64,000 nt of DNA from Gammaproteobacteria bacterium (GTDB lineage: Bacteria; Pseudomonadota; Gammaproteobacteria; HTCC5015), in NCBI GenBank assembly GCA_013817245.1, contig JACDDA010000001.1, positions 124,001 to 188,000 on the forward strand, written 5' to 3'. The first letter of the stretch is position 1; each line of letters begins with the position of its first letter. The notes below the pieces were generated by a model. It had not been told where the DNA came from and searched no databases. It saw only the letters and a list, made by a program, of their open reading frames with translations. A program made the translations under genes and the position numbers. Positions 24,683 through 46,194 of the stretch are shown one piece after another.

Positions 24683-24698
24683 GAAAAGCAAGGCGCGG

Positions 24699-24727
24699 AT
24701 TTTGCCCTAGCTAGCACCACACGTCAA
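24699..24727 (-). promoter_or_regulatory. Promoter of the tRNA-Tyr-Gly-Thr-tuf operon
   Basis: Minus strand: -35 TTGACG (24722-24727), 17-bp spacer, -10 CAAAAT (24699-24704), then the GC-rich discriminator CCGCGCC. The layout fits a stringent-type stable RNA promoter and lies 16 bp before tRNA-Tyr. Confidence 0.7.
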
Positions 24728-24963
24728 CAGACAAAATAAAGCAGTCGCTAGACAAAACCTAATGTTTTCAAGCGTTTGTTTAATTTTCTGTATTTAAAAA
24801 TCTATTTGCGATCAAGGCCTGCCGAATCGCGTAGTCGCATCGACCCGTTCACATAGCGACGCGCAGTTTACTCAACATCCGCTAAAAATCCACCGAATGA
24901 TGAGCTAAACGAAGCGCATGATCGGCCGCTAGCCTGACAACACTAATGTTTTGAGGTCATGGC

Positions 24964-25200
24964 ATGTCAGCAATCAATAAAACACCACAAGAAGGCGCGC
25001 AACATTCCATTAACGCCTTACATACTGCACTCATGGGACTTGCAAGTGATTTAGATGCACTCGAAAAAATGGCACTAGCCACACTCGACGGACATCCGCA
25101 CGCCGCCAGCAATTTACTTGAACAATGTTATGACATGAAAGCGCGCGTGCATGATGCGCTGATGGTGATTCAACAATTGAGCGATCAATTTAAAACGTAG
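24964..25200 (+). CDS. Small helical protein of unknown function
   Basis: 78 residues, with GAGGT placed 6-7 bases before ATG at 24964. The sequence is predicted mostly alpha-helical and soluble, without signal peptide or membrane segment. The C-terminal part NLLEQCYDMKARVHDALMVI recurs in a second small ORF at 25818-25967 (NLLQQSYDMKAQINDALRVI). The BLUF gene lies between the two copies. I recognise no family. It is the only larger plus-strand gene in the island. Confidence 0.65.
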   Translation: MSAINKTPQEGAQHSINALHTALMGLASDLDALEKMALATLDGHPHAASNLLEQCYDMKARVHDALMVIQQLSDQFKT

Positions 25201-25217
25201 CAATGCACCACGCTAAA

Positions 25218-25640
25218 CTACGATTTAATTTGCACCGAACGCTGCAATAATTCCAACAACAAATCTAACGCAGAATCTGGCGACATACTGTAGGGATCAA
25301 ATTTTCCATCCGTCGTATATTTAAACAACACTTCTTTATTAAAAATACCTTCACCAATATAACCCATGCGCCACTGACCAAACTGCCGTGACACAATCGG
25401 CTCGTAACGAATCATACAAGCATCTTCATGACGCTTATCCACCAAAATACGCGCATAAGCACGATTCACCGCACGACGCGGCCCTTCCAACAATTGCAAA
25501 AAATACGAACTGCTGAATAACAACACACCCGAAACATTATCGATCATGTTGTTTTGCTCAGATACTCGCAAAATATCCTTGATCACCGTGGCTTCAATAT
25601 TATTAGTCACACGCGAGGTATAAATCAGTCTTACCAACAT
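25218..25640 (-). CDS. BLUF-domain blue-light sensor protein
   Basis: 140 residues from ATG at 25640, chosen because GGAG lies 7 bases upstream; a longer frame to 25709 lacks such a site. A single BLUF domain covers residues 2-95. Flavin-binding and photocycle residues are all present: Tyr7 (LIYTS), Asn35 (DNVSGVLL), Gln49 (FLQLLEG), Trp90 and Met92 (QWRMGYIG). BLUF proteins sense blue light through FAD and act on a partner protein. No output domain is fused; the diguanylate cyclase downstream is one possible partner, by proximity only. Confidence 0.92.
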   Translation of the reverse strand: MLVRLIYTSRVTNNIEATVIKDILRVSEQNNMIDNVSGVLLFSSSYFLQLLEGPRRAVNRAYARILVDKRHEDACMIRYEPIVSRQFGQWRMGYIGEGIFNKEVLFKYTTDGKFDPYSMSPDSALDLLLELLQRSVQIKS

Positions 25641-25737
25641 AGCGATCTCCGAAAAGATAAACGACACAGCCAATCTAATCGGGTTTAGTGAAGAGCACAA
25701 CGTGAACAAAAGCTATACAGCAACACAACTCTCTTGT

Positions 25738-25754
25738 TTGATGCAGGGCATCAA
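25738..25754. promoter_or_regulatory. Perfect inverted repeat upstream of the BLUF gene
   Basis: TTGATGC-AGG-GCATCAA, a 7-bp perfect dyad about 100 bp before the BLUF start and about 65 bp before the 49-residue ORF at 25818. It could be an operator for either gene. No regulator can be named. Confidence 0.3.
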
Positions 25755-25817
25755 TAAGCGCAGCGCATTGCGGACGTATAATTTTTTCAGATTAGATGAA
25801 ACAAAATGATATCCAAC

Positions 25818-25967
25818 ATGCTTTTTTTAATAACAGAACAAAAGCGTTTCGCTCGTCGCTACGCAACTACAGCGATTAATTTATTACAACAATCTTACGA
25901 CATGAAAGCGCAAATCAATGATGCGCTGAGGGTGATTCAAAAATTGAACAAAAATTTGCGGGAGTAA
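25818..25967 (+). CDS. Short paralogue or remnant of the 24964 gene
   Basis: A 49-residue frame from ATG at 25818 to TAA at 25965-25967. Its last ~30 residues (INLLQQSYDMKAQINDALRV and on) align with the end of the 78-residue protein at 24964. The N-terminal half (MLFLITEQKRFARRY) does not match. It is best read as a truncated duplicate that could still be translated. No clear Shine-Dalgarno is visible. The DNA is also clearly similar over about 90 bp. Confidence 0.5.
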   Translation: MLFLITEQKRFARRYATTAINLLQQSYDMKAQINDALRVIQKLNKNLRE

Positions 25968-26109
25968 TTTTAAATCGCAAAAAAAGATATTAGTTAATAC
26001 AAGTTCTTTTCGAAGTGATCGTTAAAGCCGGCCAAGCCACTATCGATCACTGTTGGAATTTGAGAAACAAGCCCCTAACTAGGTGCTCGTTTTATCGGGG
26101 TAAGATCAA

Positions 26110-27450
26110 CTATTTTTCTGTTTTCTCGGATGTATCGTAAAAATACATCCGATTAGAACCGGATTTTTTAGCTTTATACATCGCCTGATCCGCGGCTTGC
26201 AGCAAAGCGACAGGAGAGGATGCGTCCTGAGGGTAAAGCGCGATCCCAATGCTGACGGAAATCTGGACCCGCTGTTGCGCGAGATGAAAGGGCACCGCAA
26301 GTGCATCAATAATAGTCTTGGCTACCAGCTCAACATCCGCGCGCAGCGTAGCGCCGGTGAGAATCACGGTAAATTCATCGCCGCCCAAGCGAGCAACCGT
26401 ATCATTCTCCCGAACACAATCAGTGAGGCGCTTTGCCATCTCAGACAATAATGAGTCCCCCACTTCATGGCCCAGCGAATCATTAACTTCTTTGAAACCA
26501 TCAAGATCCATGAAAAGTACGGAAACAGGTAGGCTACTGCGCTTTGCCTGTTTGACCTCCTGCTCCAGACGATCCAGAAAAAGACGTCTATTCGGCAACC
26601 CGGTTAAAAAGTCATGGTAGGCGTTGTACCAAATTTTTTCTTCGGCAAGCGCCTGCTCGGTAATATCCCGGGAAATGCAGACGGTCGCTTCGGTGTTTTG
26701 ATGCTCATCCAGCACGGGCGCAAGCAGATACTCGAATCTTTCACCCTTTCCAGAAGCAAAAGTGTGAACGAACTTGCCTCGGTAAGTGGACTGATCAGCA
26801 ATCACCTTTTCAAGATTGCGTTGAAAGTCTGAGGCGAACGAAAACCCGAGGTCAAAGGTGGATTTTCCGATTATCGCTCCGGGCTCCAGAGCGAAAAGAT
26901 CGGCAGTGGCCTTGTTGGCATAGATAAATCGGCCTTTGAGATCCAGCACATAAATCGGATCAGGCGATGCGACCAGAATCGCTCCGAACAACCGGGTTTC
27001 CATCTCCTTTACGATCGCATACTGCTCCAGCGATTCGGCAACGGCCTGGTCTATCGCTTCATGAAACCGAGTGAGATCTTCAAGCTGTTGGCCGGCAATC
27101 GTTGGATAAGCTTTCGTCCAGTGGGAAACCACGCTCGCGCGCAAAGCGCGAAACTCGGAAACGGTCTCAACAACGCTGAAGCCACTCGTTTGACGATCGC
27201 CACCGTGCACTTCTGCCCAAGATTCCTCCCCTTCTTTATGCTGACGGCCTTTCGATTTGGCGGCCTGTTGTGATTCACTCTGACGTGAATCGAGATCGTC
27301 AGCAATTTCTAGCAGCATATCTCTGGCGTGGTCGCGCAGCCCGCTCTTACTCATATACTTGGCAGAATGGATGGTTTTAGCAAAGGCTTCCCAATCCTGA
27401 AGAATCGGCTCTATCTCTGCTCGAATAAAATCAGCTAACCGCATATTCAT
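26110..27450 (-). CDS. PAS-GGDEF diguanylate cyclase with RsbRD-like N-terminal domain
   Basis: About 446 residues from ATG at 27450, chosen because AAGGA lies six bases upstream; a frame to 27570 has no such support. Domains in order: an RsbR/RsbRD-type helical sensor (RLADFIRAEIEPILQDWEAF, ~1-150), a PAS domain (SPDPIYVLDLKGRFIYANKA, ~165-280), and GGDEF (~300-446) with the active motif RLGGDEF and an RxxD inhibitory site (REND) five residues before it. It makes cyclic di-GMP from GTP with product feedback. GC content is visibly higher than in flanking genes, suggesting separate origin. No EAL domain. Confidence 0.92.
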   Translation of the reverse strand: MNMRLADFIRAEIEPILQDWEAFAKTIHSAKYMSKSGLRDHARDMLLEIADDLDSRQSESQQAAKSKGRQHKEGEESWAEVHGGDRQTSGFSVVETVSEFRALRASVVSHWTKAYPTIAGQQLEDLTRFHEAIDQAVAESLEQYAIVKEMETRLFGAILVASPDPIYVLDLKGRFIYANKATADLFALEPGAIIGKSTFDLGFSFASDFQRNLEKVIADQSTYRGKFVHTFASGKGERFEYLLAPVLDEHQNTEATVCISRDITEQALAEEKIWYNAYHDFLTGLPNRRLFLDRLEQEVKQAKRSSLPVSVLFMDLDGFKEVNDSLGHEVGDSLLSEMAKRLTDCVRENDTVARLGGDEFTVILTGATLRADVELVAKTIIDALAVPFHLAQQRVQISVSIGIALYPQDASSPVALLQAADQAMYKAKKSGSNRMYFYDTSEKTEK

Positions 27451-27868
27451 CTGCATTCCTTTGTCCCTCAATGAGAATAGCCTTAAAAGGGTCAGCTTAA
27501 AAGCAATGCTTCCCATCCCTTTATTCAGACTAACAAACTCTTTACTTTTTTTTAAATTAAATCGGGGCAAAACAGCTGCTATTTTTTGGCATCTACCAAA
27601 TGATCGGTTAGCGACAATACATGAAAGTAAACTTCCTATACATCATCTATAACTAGGTTTGCTTATCTAAATTCACTTCGAGCGTGCTTAAAAACTCACC
27701 CACCTGAAAATTAGTTTTACTCACCATTTGAAATGGTCGCTTTAATAACACGACCATTTAAATCAAACGCTGCTCGACTTTTAATTGATTCAAGATTTTA
27801 AATTAAAATATTAATTCTCAAATTTGTTAAAGGGATCAGCGCTCATAAATACCCGCATACTGAAAAGC
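27451..27868. other. Gene-free AT-rich spacer
   Basis: 418 bp between the diguanylate cyclase start and the YehS-like gene stop. It is strongly AT-rich with no convincing ORF or RNA. The only notable element is a copy of GTTAAAGGGATCA at 27826-27838, matching 12 of 13 bases with one at 29430-29442. Confidence 0.6.
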
Positions 27869-28399
27869 CTACGTGTTATTTTTTCTATAATGCTTTTCCA
27901 TTCCATCAAGAACATTACGTAGCAATTGATCCAAACATTCTCGATAGTGTTTATGGTCAGGGCGTCGAAATAAGGAGCTCAACTCATGCTTACTTAAAGT
28001 GAACTCACTCAGCTTAAGTATCTCAAGCAAATCATCTGCCTGTAGGTTTAGAGCGATTTTCAACTTCCGCAACACTATGTTGTTGGTCAAAATACGTTCA
28101 GGCTCTGGTGTGTCGTCACCTAAAGCACCTCTATTCTTTATGATCAGTCCATTTAAAAAGCGAGCAAGTTTTTCGTCTTCACACAAAACAAACCCAGCCT
28201 CATCTTCGCGCGCCAACCAAGTAGCCAGCTCTGCCTTATTTCCTTCATGCCCACCCAGTTTAAATAGTGAAAGCATAAGCTGATCGCTAAAATCAAAAAT
28301 ATAGCGCACTCGGCGCAAGATATCGTTATTGTTAATAATTAGTTCTCCTGTGTGATAGGGTTCAATGATAGAAATTTCAATTTGATGCCGCTGGGGCAT
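27869..28399 (-). CDS. YehS-like DUF1456 family protein
   Basis: 176 residues from ATG at 28399. From residue 22 on it aligns with E. coli YehS: NNNDILRRVRYI, WLAREDEAGF, FLNGLIIKNRG, PEPERILTNNIVLRKLKIAL and RRPDHKHYRECLDQLLRN. Two copies of the DUF1456 repeat are present; the molecular function is unknown. The first 21 residues have no counterpart. A strong AGGAG (28345-28349) sits 5 and 8 bases before two in-frame ATT codons exactly where homology begins, so translation may start at AUU. The ATG overlaps the attC-like site at 28396-28456. Confidence 0.85.
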   Translation of the reverse strand: MPQRHQIEISIIEPYHTGELIINNNDILRRVRYIFDFSDQLMLSLFKLGGHEGNKAELATWLAREDEAGFVLCEDEKLARFLNGLIIKNRGALGDDTPEPERILTNNIVLRKLKIALNLQADDLLEILKLSEFTLSKHELSSLFRRPDHKHYRECLDQLLRNVLDGMEKHYRKNNT

Positions 28400-28456
28400 G
28401 ACACTTGAATTCAGCCCGCCTCGATTTTTACGGTCAGGCGCAATGATTGGTTATAC
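28396..28456 (-). other. attC-like recombination site 1
   Basis: 61 bp on the minus strand running from GTATAAC (R''-like, 28450-28456) to GTCATGC (R'-like, 28396-28402). The 3' arm GGCGGGCTGAATTCAAG closely resembles the L' arm of integron attC sites. It aligns without gaps with the site at 28953-29013, 45 of 61 positions identical. The stop codon of the upstream gene lies within the R''-like box, a common cassette arrangement. Confidence 0.6.
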
Positions 28457-28942
28457 AGCTTTTAAACATAATAAATCTTTCTCGTGTTTTTCAGCTTCAC
28501 TAGTAATCTCATTTAAAGTTTCTTCCTTGATTTTTATTAAATCTACCAATGAAAGTATATCTACTTTACTATTGCCAATATACGAAATATTGGATTCATT
28601 TTTCATGGATTTATAATCTTGATTATTCTTAGGAGTTAAAATATCCACGTTACAAAAATTACATTTTATAGGTATTTGTTTTGCTGGTTTTTCAAGTTCA
28701 GAGGATTGCCATTTCACACTTATATGCATATTCGATAATGTGCGTATGACTTTTTCTCCATTTTCCTTTGTTGGATTAATAAGTAAATCTAGATCATTAA
28801 TTTCATCTAACTCTCGACACTTATAATATGCTGCTGCGACACTGCCAATTACTATAAAATCAACACCATTCCTAATCGCCGTTTCAAGGAATTGTTGGTT
28901 ATCACCGCGAATTACCAATCCACCCGTATCGTCGATGTTCAT
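28451..28942 (-). CDS. Nucleotidyltransferase-fold protein, probable cassette gene
   Basis: 163 residues. FIVIGSVAAAYY followed by EINDLDLLINP resembles the GS...DxD-type active site of minimal nucleotidyltransferases (AbiEii/MNT-like). A later acidic residue in CNVDILTP could be the third catalytic aspartate. The gene is AT-rich compared with housekeeping neighbours and is bracketed by two attC-like sites, its stop falling in one of them. There is no antitoxin-like partner next to it. The fold is likely; the activity is unknown. Confidence 0.65.
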   Translation of the reverse strand: MNIDDTGGLVIRGDNQQFLETAIRNGVDFIVIGSVAAAYYKCRELDEINDLDLLINPTKENGEKVIRTLSNMHISVKWQSSELEKPAKQIPIKCNFCNVDILTPKNNQDYKSMKNESNISYIGNSKVDILSLVDLIKIKEETLNEITSEAEKHEKDLLCLKAV

Positions 28943-28952
28943 TATTCAAACC

Positions 28953-29013
28953 GTATAACATGTGAATCCAGCCGGCCGTGCTTTTTACGGTCAGTTGGAA
29001 TGATTAGTTTTTG
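28953..29013 (-). other. attC-like recombination site 2
   Basis: 61 bp on the minus strand from CAAAAAC (R''-like, 29007-29013) to GTTATAC (R'-like, 28953-28959), with 3' arm GGCCGGCTGGATTCACAT. It has the same length as site 1 and shares AATCATT near the start, CTGACCGTAAAAA in the centre and GGCTG.ATTCA in the 3' arm. It begins within the end of the 29004 gene and ends 11 bp before the 28451-28942 start codon. Confidence 0.6.
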
Positions 29014-29396
29014 TTCCACAAGCTAAAAACACCCCGACGAATATAATTTATAGATATGGGAATAACTAAAAGCAATAGAATACTGATAGTATAAATTGCA
29101 ATATCTACTAGCTCTGAAGTGTTAACTCTAACCGATACATTACCCGAAGGTTTATATACACTTTTTAATATCTCTTCTATTCTATATGCATCCGAGTATT
29201 CGTTTTTTGATTGGGCATTTTTTATAGCGGTTAGGAGCTGTTCAGAGGTATATTCTTTTTCCGCATCTTCAATTACAACCCACGACTGTTCCCACGACTC
29301 AACTTTAAGCCATGCAATATATGTATTTGACATCAACACAATTAGCGCCAACAGCAAAAAGAGTAACGTAATTAGATTTATTGCTCGGTCGATCAT
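29004..29396 (-). CDS. Small two-helix membrane protein of unknown function, probable cassette gene
   Basis: 130 residues with a hydrophobic helix near each end (INLITLLFLLLALIVLM at ~7-23, IAIYTISILLLLVIPISINY at ~98-117). A polar segment of about 70 residues between them is rich in Glu and Lys. No family recognised. It is AT-rich. The start lies eight bases after the AGG of GTTAGGT, a heptamer that fits the integron R' consensus (29404-29410), so the recombination box may also supply the ribosome binding site. Confidence 0.6.
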   Translation of the reverse strand: MIDRAINLITLLFLLLALIVLMSNTYIAWLKVESWEQSWVVIEDAEKEYTSEQLLTAIKNAQSKNEYSDAYRIEEILKSVYKPSGNVSVRVNTSELVDIAIYTISILLLLVIPISINYIRRGVFSLWNKN

Positions 29397-29463
29397 ATTG
29401 ATTACCTAACGTTTTGATAAACGAAAAAAGTTAAAGGGGTCACAAACCGTAAAAGCGAGAACA

Positions 29464-30096
29464 TCACCACCACTCATTCCCACCTTTAAATTTCTCAATC
29501 CTCTGCGATTTTCTGCTGGGCGGATAATGATTCAATATTCCTGTTACTGATTTATTAATTAGTTTGACACGCTGCTGCTCATTCAACTGCTTCAATGTGT
29601 CACCTGAAAATTTTGCGTCGGCTCGGCCACGCCAAATTAATACTCTTGTTTGAGCATCAACGATATAAACCACTAAATTTGACCCAGCATAATCAACCAA
29701 ACGGAAATCTTTTTGCTGGGCATTGGAGCGGGTGGGTGCAGGTACAGATGCGCAATAAGAACAATTTTCATTATTATAAGAAACGTTAGGTGCTTGAAAA
29801 ACTTCTACGCTCTGAGCTTGCTTGTCCGCTATGAAATAACTTACCAAAATATCAGCATCTTCGAACGACGCACTAACAAAGCTCTTGGCCTCAAGCTGGC
29901 TTATTATTTCCTTTTCAAGCTCAACACTGACAGGCGTTTTTTTAACGGGGTGTGGATTAGCGGCTAGCGCTATTGCAAATTTTTTCTTATGAAGAAAATC
30001 AAAACCACTGACATATTCACTTTCCACATTGTAAGTAGTTGCACAACCACTTAATAAGAACAGCCACAACCAAAAGATTGGTTTTTTATTATTCAT
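29464..30096 (-). CDS. DUF4136-type lipoprotein
   Basis: 210 residues. The N-terminus has lysines, a hydrophobic stretch and the lipobox LSGC (cleavage before Cys18), so it is a lipoprotein, probably in the outer membrane. The body resembles DUF4136 proteins: a folded domain with SFVSASFEDADILVSYFI, DYAGSNLVVYIVDAQTRVLI and WRGRADAK. Function unknown. It is preceded by tRNA-Thr(UGU) after about 70 bp on the same strand. Confidence 0.75.
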   Translation of the reverse strand: MNNKKPIFWLWLFLLSGCATTYNVESEYVSGFDFLHKKKFAIALAANPHPVKKTPVSVELEKEIISQLEAKSFVSASFEDADILVSYFIADKQAQSVEVFQAPNVSYNNENCSYCASVPAPTRSNAQQKDFRLVDYAGSNLVVYIVDAQTRVLIWRGRADAKFSGDTLKQLNEQQRVKLINKSVTGILNHYPPSRKSQRIEKFKGGNEWW

Positions 30097-30168
30097 TTTT
30101 GGTCTCTTTTCTAAAACAAAAAATGCTAATTGATAAAAAATAGCGCCCTTACTTTAATATTATGAATA

Positions 30169-30244
30169 TGGAGCTGGTGATAGGATTCGAACCTACGACC
30201 TGCTGATTACAAATCAGCTGCTCTACCAACTGAGCTACACCAGC
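30169..30244 (-). tRNA. tRNA-Thr(UGU)
   Basis: 76 nt with encoded CCA. Acceptor GCTGGTG / CACCAGC, D arm AGCTCAGTTGGTAGAGC, anticodon TGT in the arm CTGATTTGTAATCAG, T arm GGTTCGAATCC. It lies upstream of tRNA-Tyr as in the Thr-Tyr-Gly-Thr-tufB clusters of other gammaproteobacteria, but 5.5 kb of accessory DNA now separates them. Confidence 0.98.
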
Positions 30245-30304
30245 TTAACGACACTTCTTTCTTCTTTTAAATGTGAGAGCCTTTAAAAGCACTTTCCCGT
30301 TTCA

Positions 30305-30615
30305 CTTACACTTTCAAAACGCCTTGTGTAGATATGCTACACAAATCAGCTGCTCTACCAACTGAGCTACACCAGCTTAACAACACTTACACTTTCAGAA
30401 CGCCTGCTGTAGATATGCTACACAAATCAGCTGCTCTACCCACTAAGCTACACCAGCCTAACAAACTTACACTTTCAAAAATCCTGTGTAGATATGCTAC
30501 ACAAATCAGCTGCTCTACCAAAGAACTACACCAGCCTAACAACAACTTACACTTTCAAAACGCCTTGTGTAGACATGCTACACAAATCAGCTGTTTTACC
30601 GAAGCCCCAGCCCAC
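30305..30615 (-). repeat. Four tandem ~80-bp units each containing the 5' half of tRNA-Thr(UGU)
   Basis: Units begin at 30305, 30386, 30466 and 30546 (periods 81, 80 and 80 bp). On the minus strand each unit has a short leader, the first ~36 nt of tRNA-Thr(UGU) up to the anticodon, then a hairpin TTGTGTAG-CATAT-CTACACAA and a TGAAAGTGTAAG tail. The 3' half of the tRNA is missing in all. The unit nearest the real gene (30305) is identical to it over the 36 nt (30341-30376); the furthest (30546) has lost most of the D-arm sequence, a gradient of decay. Nothing else occupies 30245-30680. Confidence 0.9.
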
Positions 30616-30680
30616 TACGGCGCGAATTGTAATGGATGCTTTAATTGGCCGCCAGCGCGTAACGATGAATTAATGGTTTT

Positions 30681-44931: not shown

Positions 44932-46194
44932 ATGGCATTAGAATTTAGATTACCGGATATTGGCGAAGGTCTCACCGAAGGTGAAATCATTAAATGGTGC
45001 GTGAAGATTGGCGACAAAGTCGCTGAGCATCAAACTGTATTAGAAGTCATGACCGACAAAGCAGCGGTAGAATTGCCTTCACCTAAAGCCGGCATCATTA
45101 AAGAAATTCTCGCCAAAGAAGGCGATGTTGTGCCAGTCGGCACTGTGATTTTTATTTTAGACGATGGTCAAACCGCCGTTACTAGCGCAGGACACAGCGG
45201 CCACGGTCACGCGAAACCTGCTGCTAAAACAGAAACTAAAACAGAAACTAAAACAGAAACTAAAACAGAAACTAAAACAGCAACCGCTGTGAGCGCACAC
45301 GACGATAAAGTGCGTGCGGTTCCGAGTGCACGTCGTAGTGCACGCGATTTAAATGTAACACTCGCTGATGTTGAAGGCTCCGGCCGCAACGGCGTAATTC
45401 GTCGCAGTGATGTAGAAGCCGTTGCAAAATCGGGACGCAATGTCAGCAGCAATAATAACGCTAGTCAAATCAGCATTCCTGCCGGCACTCGCGAAACGCG
45501 CACGCCATTTGTAGGTTTGCGTCGTAAAATTGCCGAACAAATGACACGTTCAAAATTTACGGCCACTCACTTTACGGTTGTAGAAGAAATTGATGTCACT
45601 GAATTAGTGCGTTTACGTCAACGCGCTAAAGCGATCGGCGAAAAAGAAGGCACTAAATTAACCTTCACCGCTTTTATTATGAAAGCATGCGCCAGCGCTT
45701 TAATAAAATATCCCGAACTCAACAGCATGCTGGATGAAAAAAATAACGAAATCGTTACTTATCATTACAGCAATCTCGGCATTGCAACGGATACGCCCAA
45801 CGGCTTAGTCGTGCCAGTGATTCGTGATGCACAAGCTAAAAGTGTATTAACGCTTAGCAAAGAATTGGATGCGATGGCCGACAAAGCGCGTAATGGTCAA
45901 CTCAAAGCAGAAGATTTTCAAGGCGGCACCTTTACGATTTCAAATGCCGGTCAAATCGGTAGCATTCACGCCACGCCTATTATCAACTTCCCACAAGTGG
46001 CTATCTTAGGTGTACATCGCTTAATGAAAAAACCAGGTGTAGTAGAAACACCGGAAGGCGATAAAATCGAAGTTCGTCAATACATGAATTTTTCCATCAG
46101 CGTTGATCATCGCTTAGCGGATGGTGTTTCTGCCGTTCGTTTATTAGTACACATCAAGCAATTACTTGAAGATCCGGGGTTGTTAGCATTATGA
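44932..46194 (+). CDS. 2-oxoacid dehydrogenase E2 (second complex)
   Basis: 420 residues with AGGAG eight bases before the ATG. N-terminal lipoyl domain with Lys43 (MTDKAAVEL), a linker with a KTET repeat (~99-117), a clear E3/E1-binding domain (PSARRSARDLNVTLADVEGS, ~128-165), and the acyltransferase core ending in SVDHRLADGVSAVRLL with canonical His393 and Asp397. Unlike the first E2, both the binding domain and the catalytic HxxxDG are typical. The stop overlaps the E1 alpha start by 4 bp. Confidence 0.95.
   Translation: MALEFRLPDIGEGLTEGEIIKWCVKIGDKVAEHQTVLEVMTDKAAVELPSPKAGIIKEILAKEGDVVPVGTVIFILDDGQTAVTSAGHSGHGHAKPAAKTETKTETKTETKTETKTATAVSAHDDKVRAVPSARRSARDLNVTLADVEGSGRNGVIRRSDVEAVAKSGRNVSSNNNASQISIPAGTRETRTPFVGLRRKIAEQMTRSKFTATHFTVVEEIDVTELVRLRQRAKAIGEKEGTKLTFTAFIMKACASALIKYPELNSMLDEKNNEIVTYHYSNLGIATDTPNGLVVPVIRDAQAKSVLTLSKELDAMADKARNGQLKAEDFQGGTFTISNAGQIGSIHATPIINFPQVAILGVHRLMKKPGVVETPEGDKIEVRQYMNFSISVDHRLADGVSAVRLLVHIKQLLEDPGLLAL
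45224..45283 (+). repeat. Five 12-bp tandem repeats in the E2 linker
   Basis: Unit CTAAAACAGAAA, four exact copies then CTAAAACAGCAA. Translated it gives the KTET run between lipoyl and binding domains. Because 12 bp is a multiple of three, copy-number change would lengthen or shorten the flexible linker without breaking the frame. Confidence 0.95.

Follow-up and report, generated by a model that had tools for sequence, protein, structure and literature searches.

Most of the partial tRNA gene copies known from bacteria are either 3'-end repeats or relics left by the integration of elements. The rtT repeats (RtT, RF00391) of the E. coli tyrT-tyrV locus consist of 178-nt tandem units that lie downstream of the tRNA and carry ~20 nt of its 3' end, and small RNA, sponge or decoy roles have been proposed for rtT and for the spacers of tRNA operons in E. 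coli. Integrating elements also leave behind partial tRNA genes and non-canonical fragments (PMC9897764). The window analyzed here, a 64,000-nucleotide stretch of a gammaproteobacterial genome (G000), contains a tandem array beside an intact tRNA-Thr(UGU) gene that resembles both systems in part. Like rtT, the array repeats a piece of the adjacent tRNA on the same strand; unlike rtT, its units are ~80 nt long, lie upstream of the gene and carry the tRNA 5' half, where the E. coli repeats carry the 3' end downstream. The RF00391 covariance model, which recovers four copies in E. coli, has no match in the window, and no Rfam family other than tRNA exceeds threshold there. The comparison with rtT made in an earlier note on this DNA is fair at the level of a tRNA-derived tandem repeat. 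Like the partial tRNA genes of integrating elements (PMC9897764), the array places tRNA fragments beside an intact gene, but no element or integrase was found with it, and its several tandem copies lie in the leader. The general kind, partial tRNA duplication, is known; the multi-copy 5' form is new. The features of the locus are as follows.

30169–30244, minus strand: intact tRNA-Thr(UGU) gene at the thrU position (ARAGORN; Rfam, 77.2 bits)
30245–30303, minus strand: part of the leader next to the gene, including a 51-nt stretch that has AAGTG direct repeats at its borders (from the sequence)
30303–30383, minus strand: unit 1, with a tRNA-Thr 5' half equal to the gene, an intact hairpin (30324–30344) and the spacer
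30384–30464, minus strand: unit 2, with three changes in the tRNA part and its 5' flank, and a hairpin (30405–30425) in which 2 of 8 pairs are broken
30463–30543, minus strand: unit 3, with four changes in the tRNA part including a 1-nt deletion, a hairpin (30484–30504) with one wobble pair, and a T-run next to it
30544–30624, minus strand: unit 4, with hairpin (30565–30585) and spacer intact, a changed loop, and a tRNA part recognizable over ~19 nt only
30618–30660, minus strand: candidate for the ancestral promoter of thrU, CTGGCG-18-TACAAT with a TCGCGCC discriminator after it

The four tandem units lie 5' of tRNA-Thr(UGU) between 30303 and 30624, at spacings of 81, 79 and 81 bp, and are also detected by Tandem Repeats Finder with scores of 468–494. 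Judged by its sequence, this structure is far beyond chance, and the four-unit array reported earlier is real, with its spacing now refined to 79–81 bp. On the minus strand, each unit reads TTGTTAAG, the tRNA 5' half (GCTGGTGTAGCTCAGTTGGTAGAGCAGCTGAT), the palindrome TTGTGTAG-CATAT-CTACACAA and a 20-nt spacer, GGCGTTTTGAAAGTGTAAGT, with palindrome and spacer in place of the tRNA 3' half. The tRNA 5' half is present in units 1–3, and TTGTGTAG-N5-CTACACAA in all four units. The earlier note had described units made of a tRNA half and a hairpin, ending at 30615; the hairpin does belong to the repeat and does replace the 3' half, but the array reaches ~30624 and the 20-nt spacer is equally part of the repeat. 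The spacer also precedes the real gene, where a 51-nt stretch ending in the second AAGTG intervenes before the tRNA; this stretch is missing from the unit junctions. The array had further been placed directly upstream of the gene, which is correct for the gene's strand, but between the unit 1 hairpin and the gene there are ~80 nt of leader, including the 51-nt stretch. Unit 2 retains a weak tRNA match (19.2 bits), and the unit 3 hairpin with its T-run is called as terminator-like, while the hairpins of the other units are not called. A 116-aa open reading frame crosses the array on the plus strand; it has no Pfam match, and at the 79-bp spacing the reading frame is not kept from one copy to the next.

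The units diverge with distance from the gene. Unit 1 matches the gene exactly across the tRNA 5' half, units 2 and 3 carry three and four changes in the tRNA part, and this part is largely lost in unit 4, an outward decay in agreement with the earlier description. The furthest unit had been taken as a tRNA half with a scrambled D arm. It is indeed diverged, but clear tRNA identity is confined to the ~19 nt beside the hairpin; the 25 nt upstream of that stretch match the gene at chance level (p=0.41 by shuffling, p=0.10 against 25-mers of the window), and a comparison of the same part with unit 3 gives a weak match (p=0.007). Units 2 and 3 have the motif GTTAGGC in common. Two histories would fit this gradient, in both of which the older copies decay outward: the array grew on the side of the gene, or the gene has corrected unit 1.

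A selective preservation of the hairpin, rather than of the tRNA fold, had been suggested for these copies, and a direct count of changes does not bear it out. Relative to unit 1, the hairpin has 4 changes in 63 sites and the spacer 4 in 60 (units 2–4), and the tRNA half has 7 in 72 (units 2 and 3); the differences are not significant (Fisher, p=0.54 for hairpin versus tRNA half, p=1.0 for hairpin versus spacer), in a comparison of four copies whose low power would let modest constraint escape. The hairpin is thus not preferentially conserved. It had also been said to stay intact in most copies, which holds in that three of the four hairpins are fully paired, but unit 2 has lost 2 of its 8 stem pairs and one T-A pair in the unit 3 stem has become T-G. 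Compensatory changes, sought among the four units, are absent: no stem pair is altered in both of its bases. The folding of individual units is not significantly better than that of their shuffles (z from -1.26 to +0.92), compared with z = -3.19 for the tRNA. As in a pseudogene array, the tandem units share homology with part of the neighboring gene and drift at equal rates in all three parts with no preserved element, within the low power of four copies. Nevertheless, the palindrome is mostly retained in 4/4 copies, which is as compatible with weak selection as with youth. Two other identities of the repeat were rejected. Alignment of the hairpin as a decayed tRNA T arm is no better than chance (p 0.08–0.77), and a resemblance to integron attC fails by eye, as GTTAAGC is nothing more than sequence flanking the tRNA on its 5' side and has no partner RYYYAAC box.

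Among the genomes scanned, the array is restricted to its own lineage. The junction of tRNA half and hairpin is present in 1 of 273 genomes of the class, the window's own, and the proposed search of relatives for hairpin plus tRNA-Thr 5' half gave no match in the other 272 or at the thrU locus of the related genome G001. The exact hairpin followed by GG is in no GTDB contig scanned, in a set from which near-identical records may be left out, and neighbor-gene loci from GTDB contigs contain no tRNA. Similar arrays are absent from the other G000 tRNA loci among the stretches checked, and plasmid and phage searches return only short stretches of 34–44 bases within the tRNA part of a unit. In G001, the locus reads SPOR gene, tRNA-Thr(UGU), Tyr, Gly, Thr(GGU) and then a gene reading as EF-Tu, with a promoter-like TTGACC-17-TAGAAT 39 nt before tRNA-Thr and no array. 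The tRNA-Thr(UGU) gene and the tRNA-Tyr-Gly-Thr cluster, which adjoin in G001, are separated in the window by a 5.5-kb stretch (24683–30168) that encodes BLUF, PAS-GGDEF and DUF1456 proteins, a DUF4136 lipoprotein and two proteins without a Pfam match.

Hairpins similar to that of the array have other origins. The array hairpin itself is not a dispersed MITE, as it has no copy in G000 outside the array. G001 contains 45 look-alike hairpins, which belong to an unrelated MITE that is without tRNA and absent from G000; this element (L031–L050) is ~160 bp or more in length, has at least 40 near-identical copies and is centered on CCGTGTAG-N5-CTACACAA. An exact 21-nt match to the hairpin, TTGTGTAGCATATCTACACAA, is present in a viral contig (L051, 7547–7567), without tRNA and with different flanks. 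It is followed by a second inverted repeat, GTGTAG, and lies beside a phage gene; it is possibly an operator and is unlikely to be related to the array.

The position of the array relative to the likely thrU promoter points to its transcription. A -10 element with a GCGC discriminator is present within 75 nt upstream of 8 of the 37 tRNA genes checked in this genome, versus 1.6 expected, and tRNA genes having such a site nearby have it 19–69 nt from the gene. The only such site within 400 nt of thrU is TACAAT-TCGCGCC, 387 nt upstream and beyond the array. The tRNA-like part of unit 4 begins 20 nt from the start of this -10, the usual place for a tRNA gene to begin, and the -35 of the site (CTGGCG) is poor, with 3/6 matches. 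The array likely sits between the gene and this candidate promoter and, because of that position, is probably transcribed as a pre-tRNA leader of ~370 nt. The earlier suggestion that the array may be transcribed is thus plausible on sequence grounds.

The best explanation, and in our judgment a probable one, is a private tandem partial duplication of tRNA-Thr(UGU) that has been amplified, is drifting and is discarded as leader RNA. The tRNA 5' half up to the anticodon loop would have been joined to a short palindrome and spacer, and the resulting ~80-bp unit would have multiplied between promoter and gene via slippage or unequal exchange, the copy closest to the gene being the newest and the older ones drifting. 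Transcription from the promoter beyond unit 4 would include the units in the 5' leader, which would be discarded as RNase P and endonucleases mature the tRNA. The array is probably non-functional, lineage-private and located in the gene's own leader. With compensatory changes absent and the array without a relative among the genomes scanned, there is no sign that a small RNA or decoy is being maintained, and a regulatory or decoy role finds no positive support.

An unlikely alternative to this discarded-leader explanation is that the leader RNA is functional and that its processing frees hairpin fragments acting as small RNAs, sponges or RNase decoys. The gene is presumably highly expressed and the array does lie in what is probably its leader, three of the four hairpins are fully paired, and E. 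coli rtT, annotated with the RNA rttR, shows that tRNA-derived arrays can yield RNAs; yet the hairpin is not preferentially conserved, shows no covariation and is broken in unit 2, and the non-significant unit folding (z -1.26 to +0.92), the absence of Rfam matches beyond tRNA and the lack of relatives among the genomes scanned all argue against function. It is similarly doubtful that this is a young tRNA-derived leader array whose fragments, released in tRNA-Thr maturation, form a multi-copy RNA sponge or tune tRNA-Thr, as an independent 5' counterpart of rtT. The half-copies could instead lower tRNA-Thr output, either as decoy 5' halves competing for the 3' half or through weak termination at the hairpins, but this is quite improbable. 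In equilibrium folding, the mean native pair probability is 0.84 for the tRNA by itself and drops to 0.23 once the full leader is included; however, this decoy effect is not specific, because 10 of 100 shuffled leaders (10%) are as disruptive to the tRNA fold, and folding whole transcripts at equilibrium ignores co-transcriptional folding. The terminator-like hairpin and T-run of unit 3 would suit termination, but the other units have no T-run next to the stem.

The anticodon loop is a known target of tyrosine recombinases, and the units could be a series of att sites, or leftovers of an element that integrated there, with the palindrome as recombinase site. The breakpoint in the anticodon loop, the 5-nt center of the palindrome and the 5.5-kb stretch between thrU and tyrU that is not found at the G001 locus are consistent with this idea. 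It is nonetheless very unlikely: the intervening genes (BLUF, GGDEF, DUF1456, DUF4136) include no integrase, 80-bp units are too small to hold an integrase or element inside the array, tRNA integrations usually duplicate the 3' part, the hairpin has no other copy in the genome, and the plasmid and phage matches are short tRNA stretches only. Hardly credible is the reading of each unit as a new promoter, in which the D-loop TTGGTA would serve as -35 and the TAGCAT within the hairpin as -10. By a simple matrix, units 1 and 3 score 8.56, above the 7.35 of the promoter beyond unit 4, but the background upstream of other tRNA genes scores up to 8.8, units 2 and 4 fall to 4.79, and the GCGC discriminator is missing.

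Partial 5' copies of tRNA genes also occur elsewhere. A search for pairs of D-arm motifs spaced too closely to belong to two complete tRNAs gives a frequency that is a lower bound, since the 81-bp period of the array itself lies outside this narrower scan. In genome G349 (L101), a copy of the 5' half of tRNA-Lys(UUU) lies 64 nt upstream of that gene, ends just past the anticodon and is unique among 60 genomes of its family; in G657 (L114), tRNA-Thr(UGU) is preceded by its own 5' part including the anticodon arm. Like the array, both loci consist of a 5' part reaching as far as the anticodon loop or arm, a short filler and the intact gene, with copy and gene 64–67 nt apart; unlike the array, each has a single copy and a different filler, without the TTGTGTAG hairpin. 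Thus, 5' partial tRNA copies arise separately now and then, and the array in the window is an amplified case. The four-copy 5'-half array and these two independent single-copy parallels, with breaks in the anticodon loop or arm, suggest that partial duplication of tRNA genes recurs by a route which annotation misses; the biological weight of the array is modest unless it proves to yield an RNA product.

Several smaller features accompany these loci. At L101 (1480–1632), CTTTCTCTCC after the tRNA-Lys(UUU) 5'-half copy looks complementary to GGAAAGAAAG before it, again an inverted repeat beside a broken tRNA half. Elsewhere in G000 (L074, 486–512 and 663–688), the 3' end of a tRNA-Arg gene is repeated downstream of it in a 27-bp copy (93%), following a hairpin-rich stretch; the arrangement recalls the rtT repeats of E. 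coli or a former att site, and the RtT model has no match at this locus. Within the window, a separate short repeat at 45224–45284 consists of five tandem 12-bp units of CTAAAACAGAAA with 97% matches.
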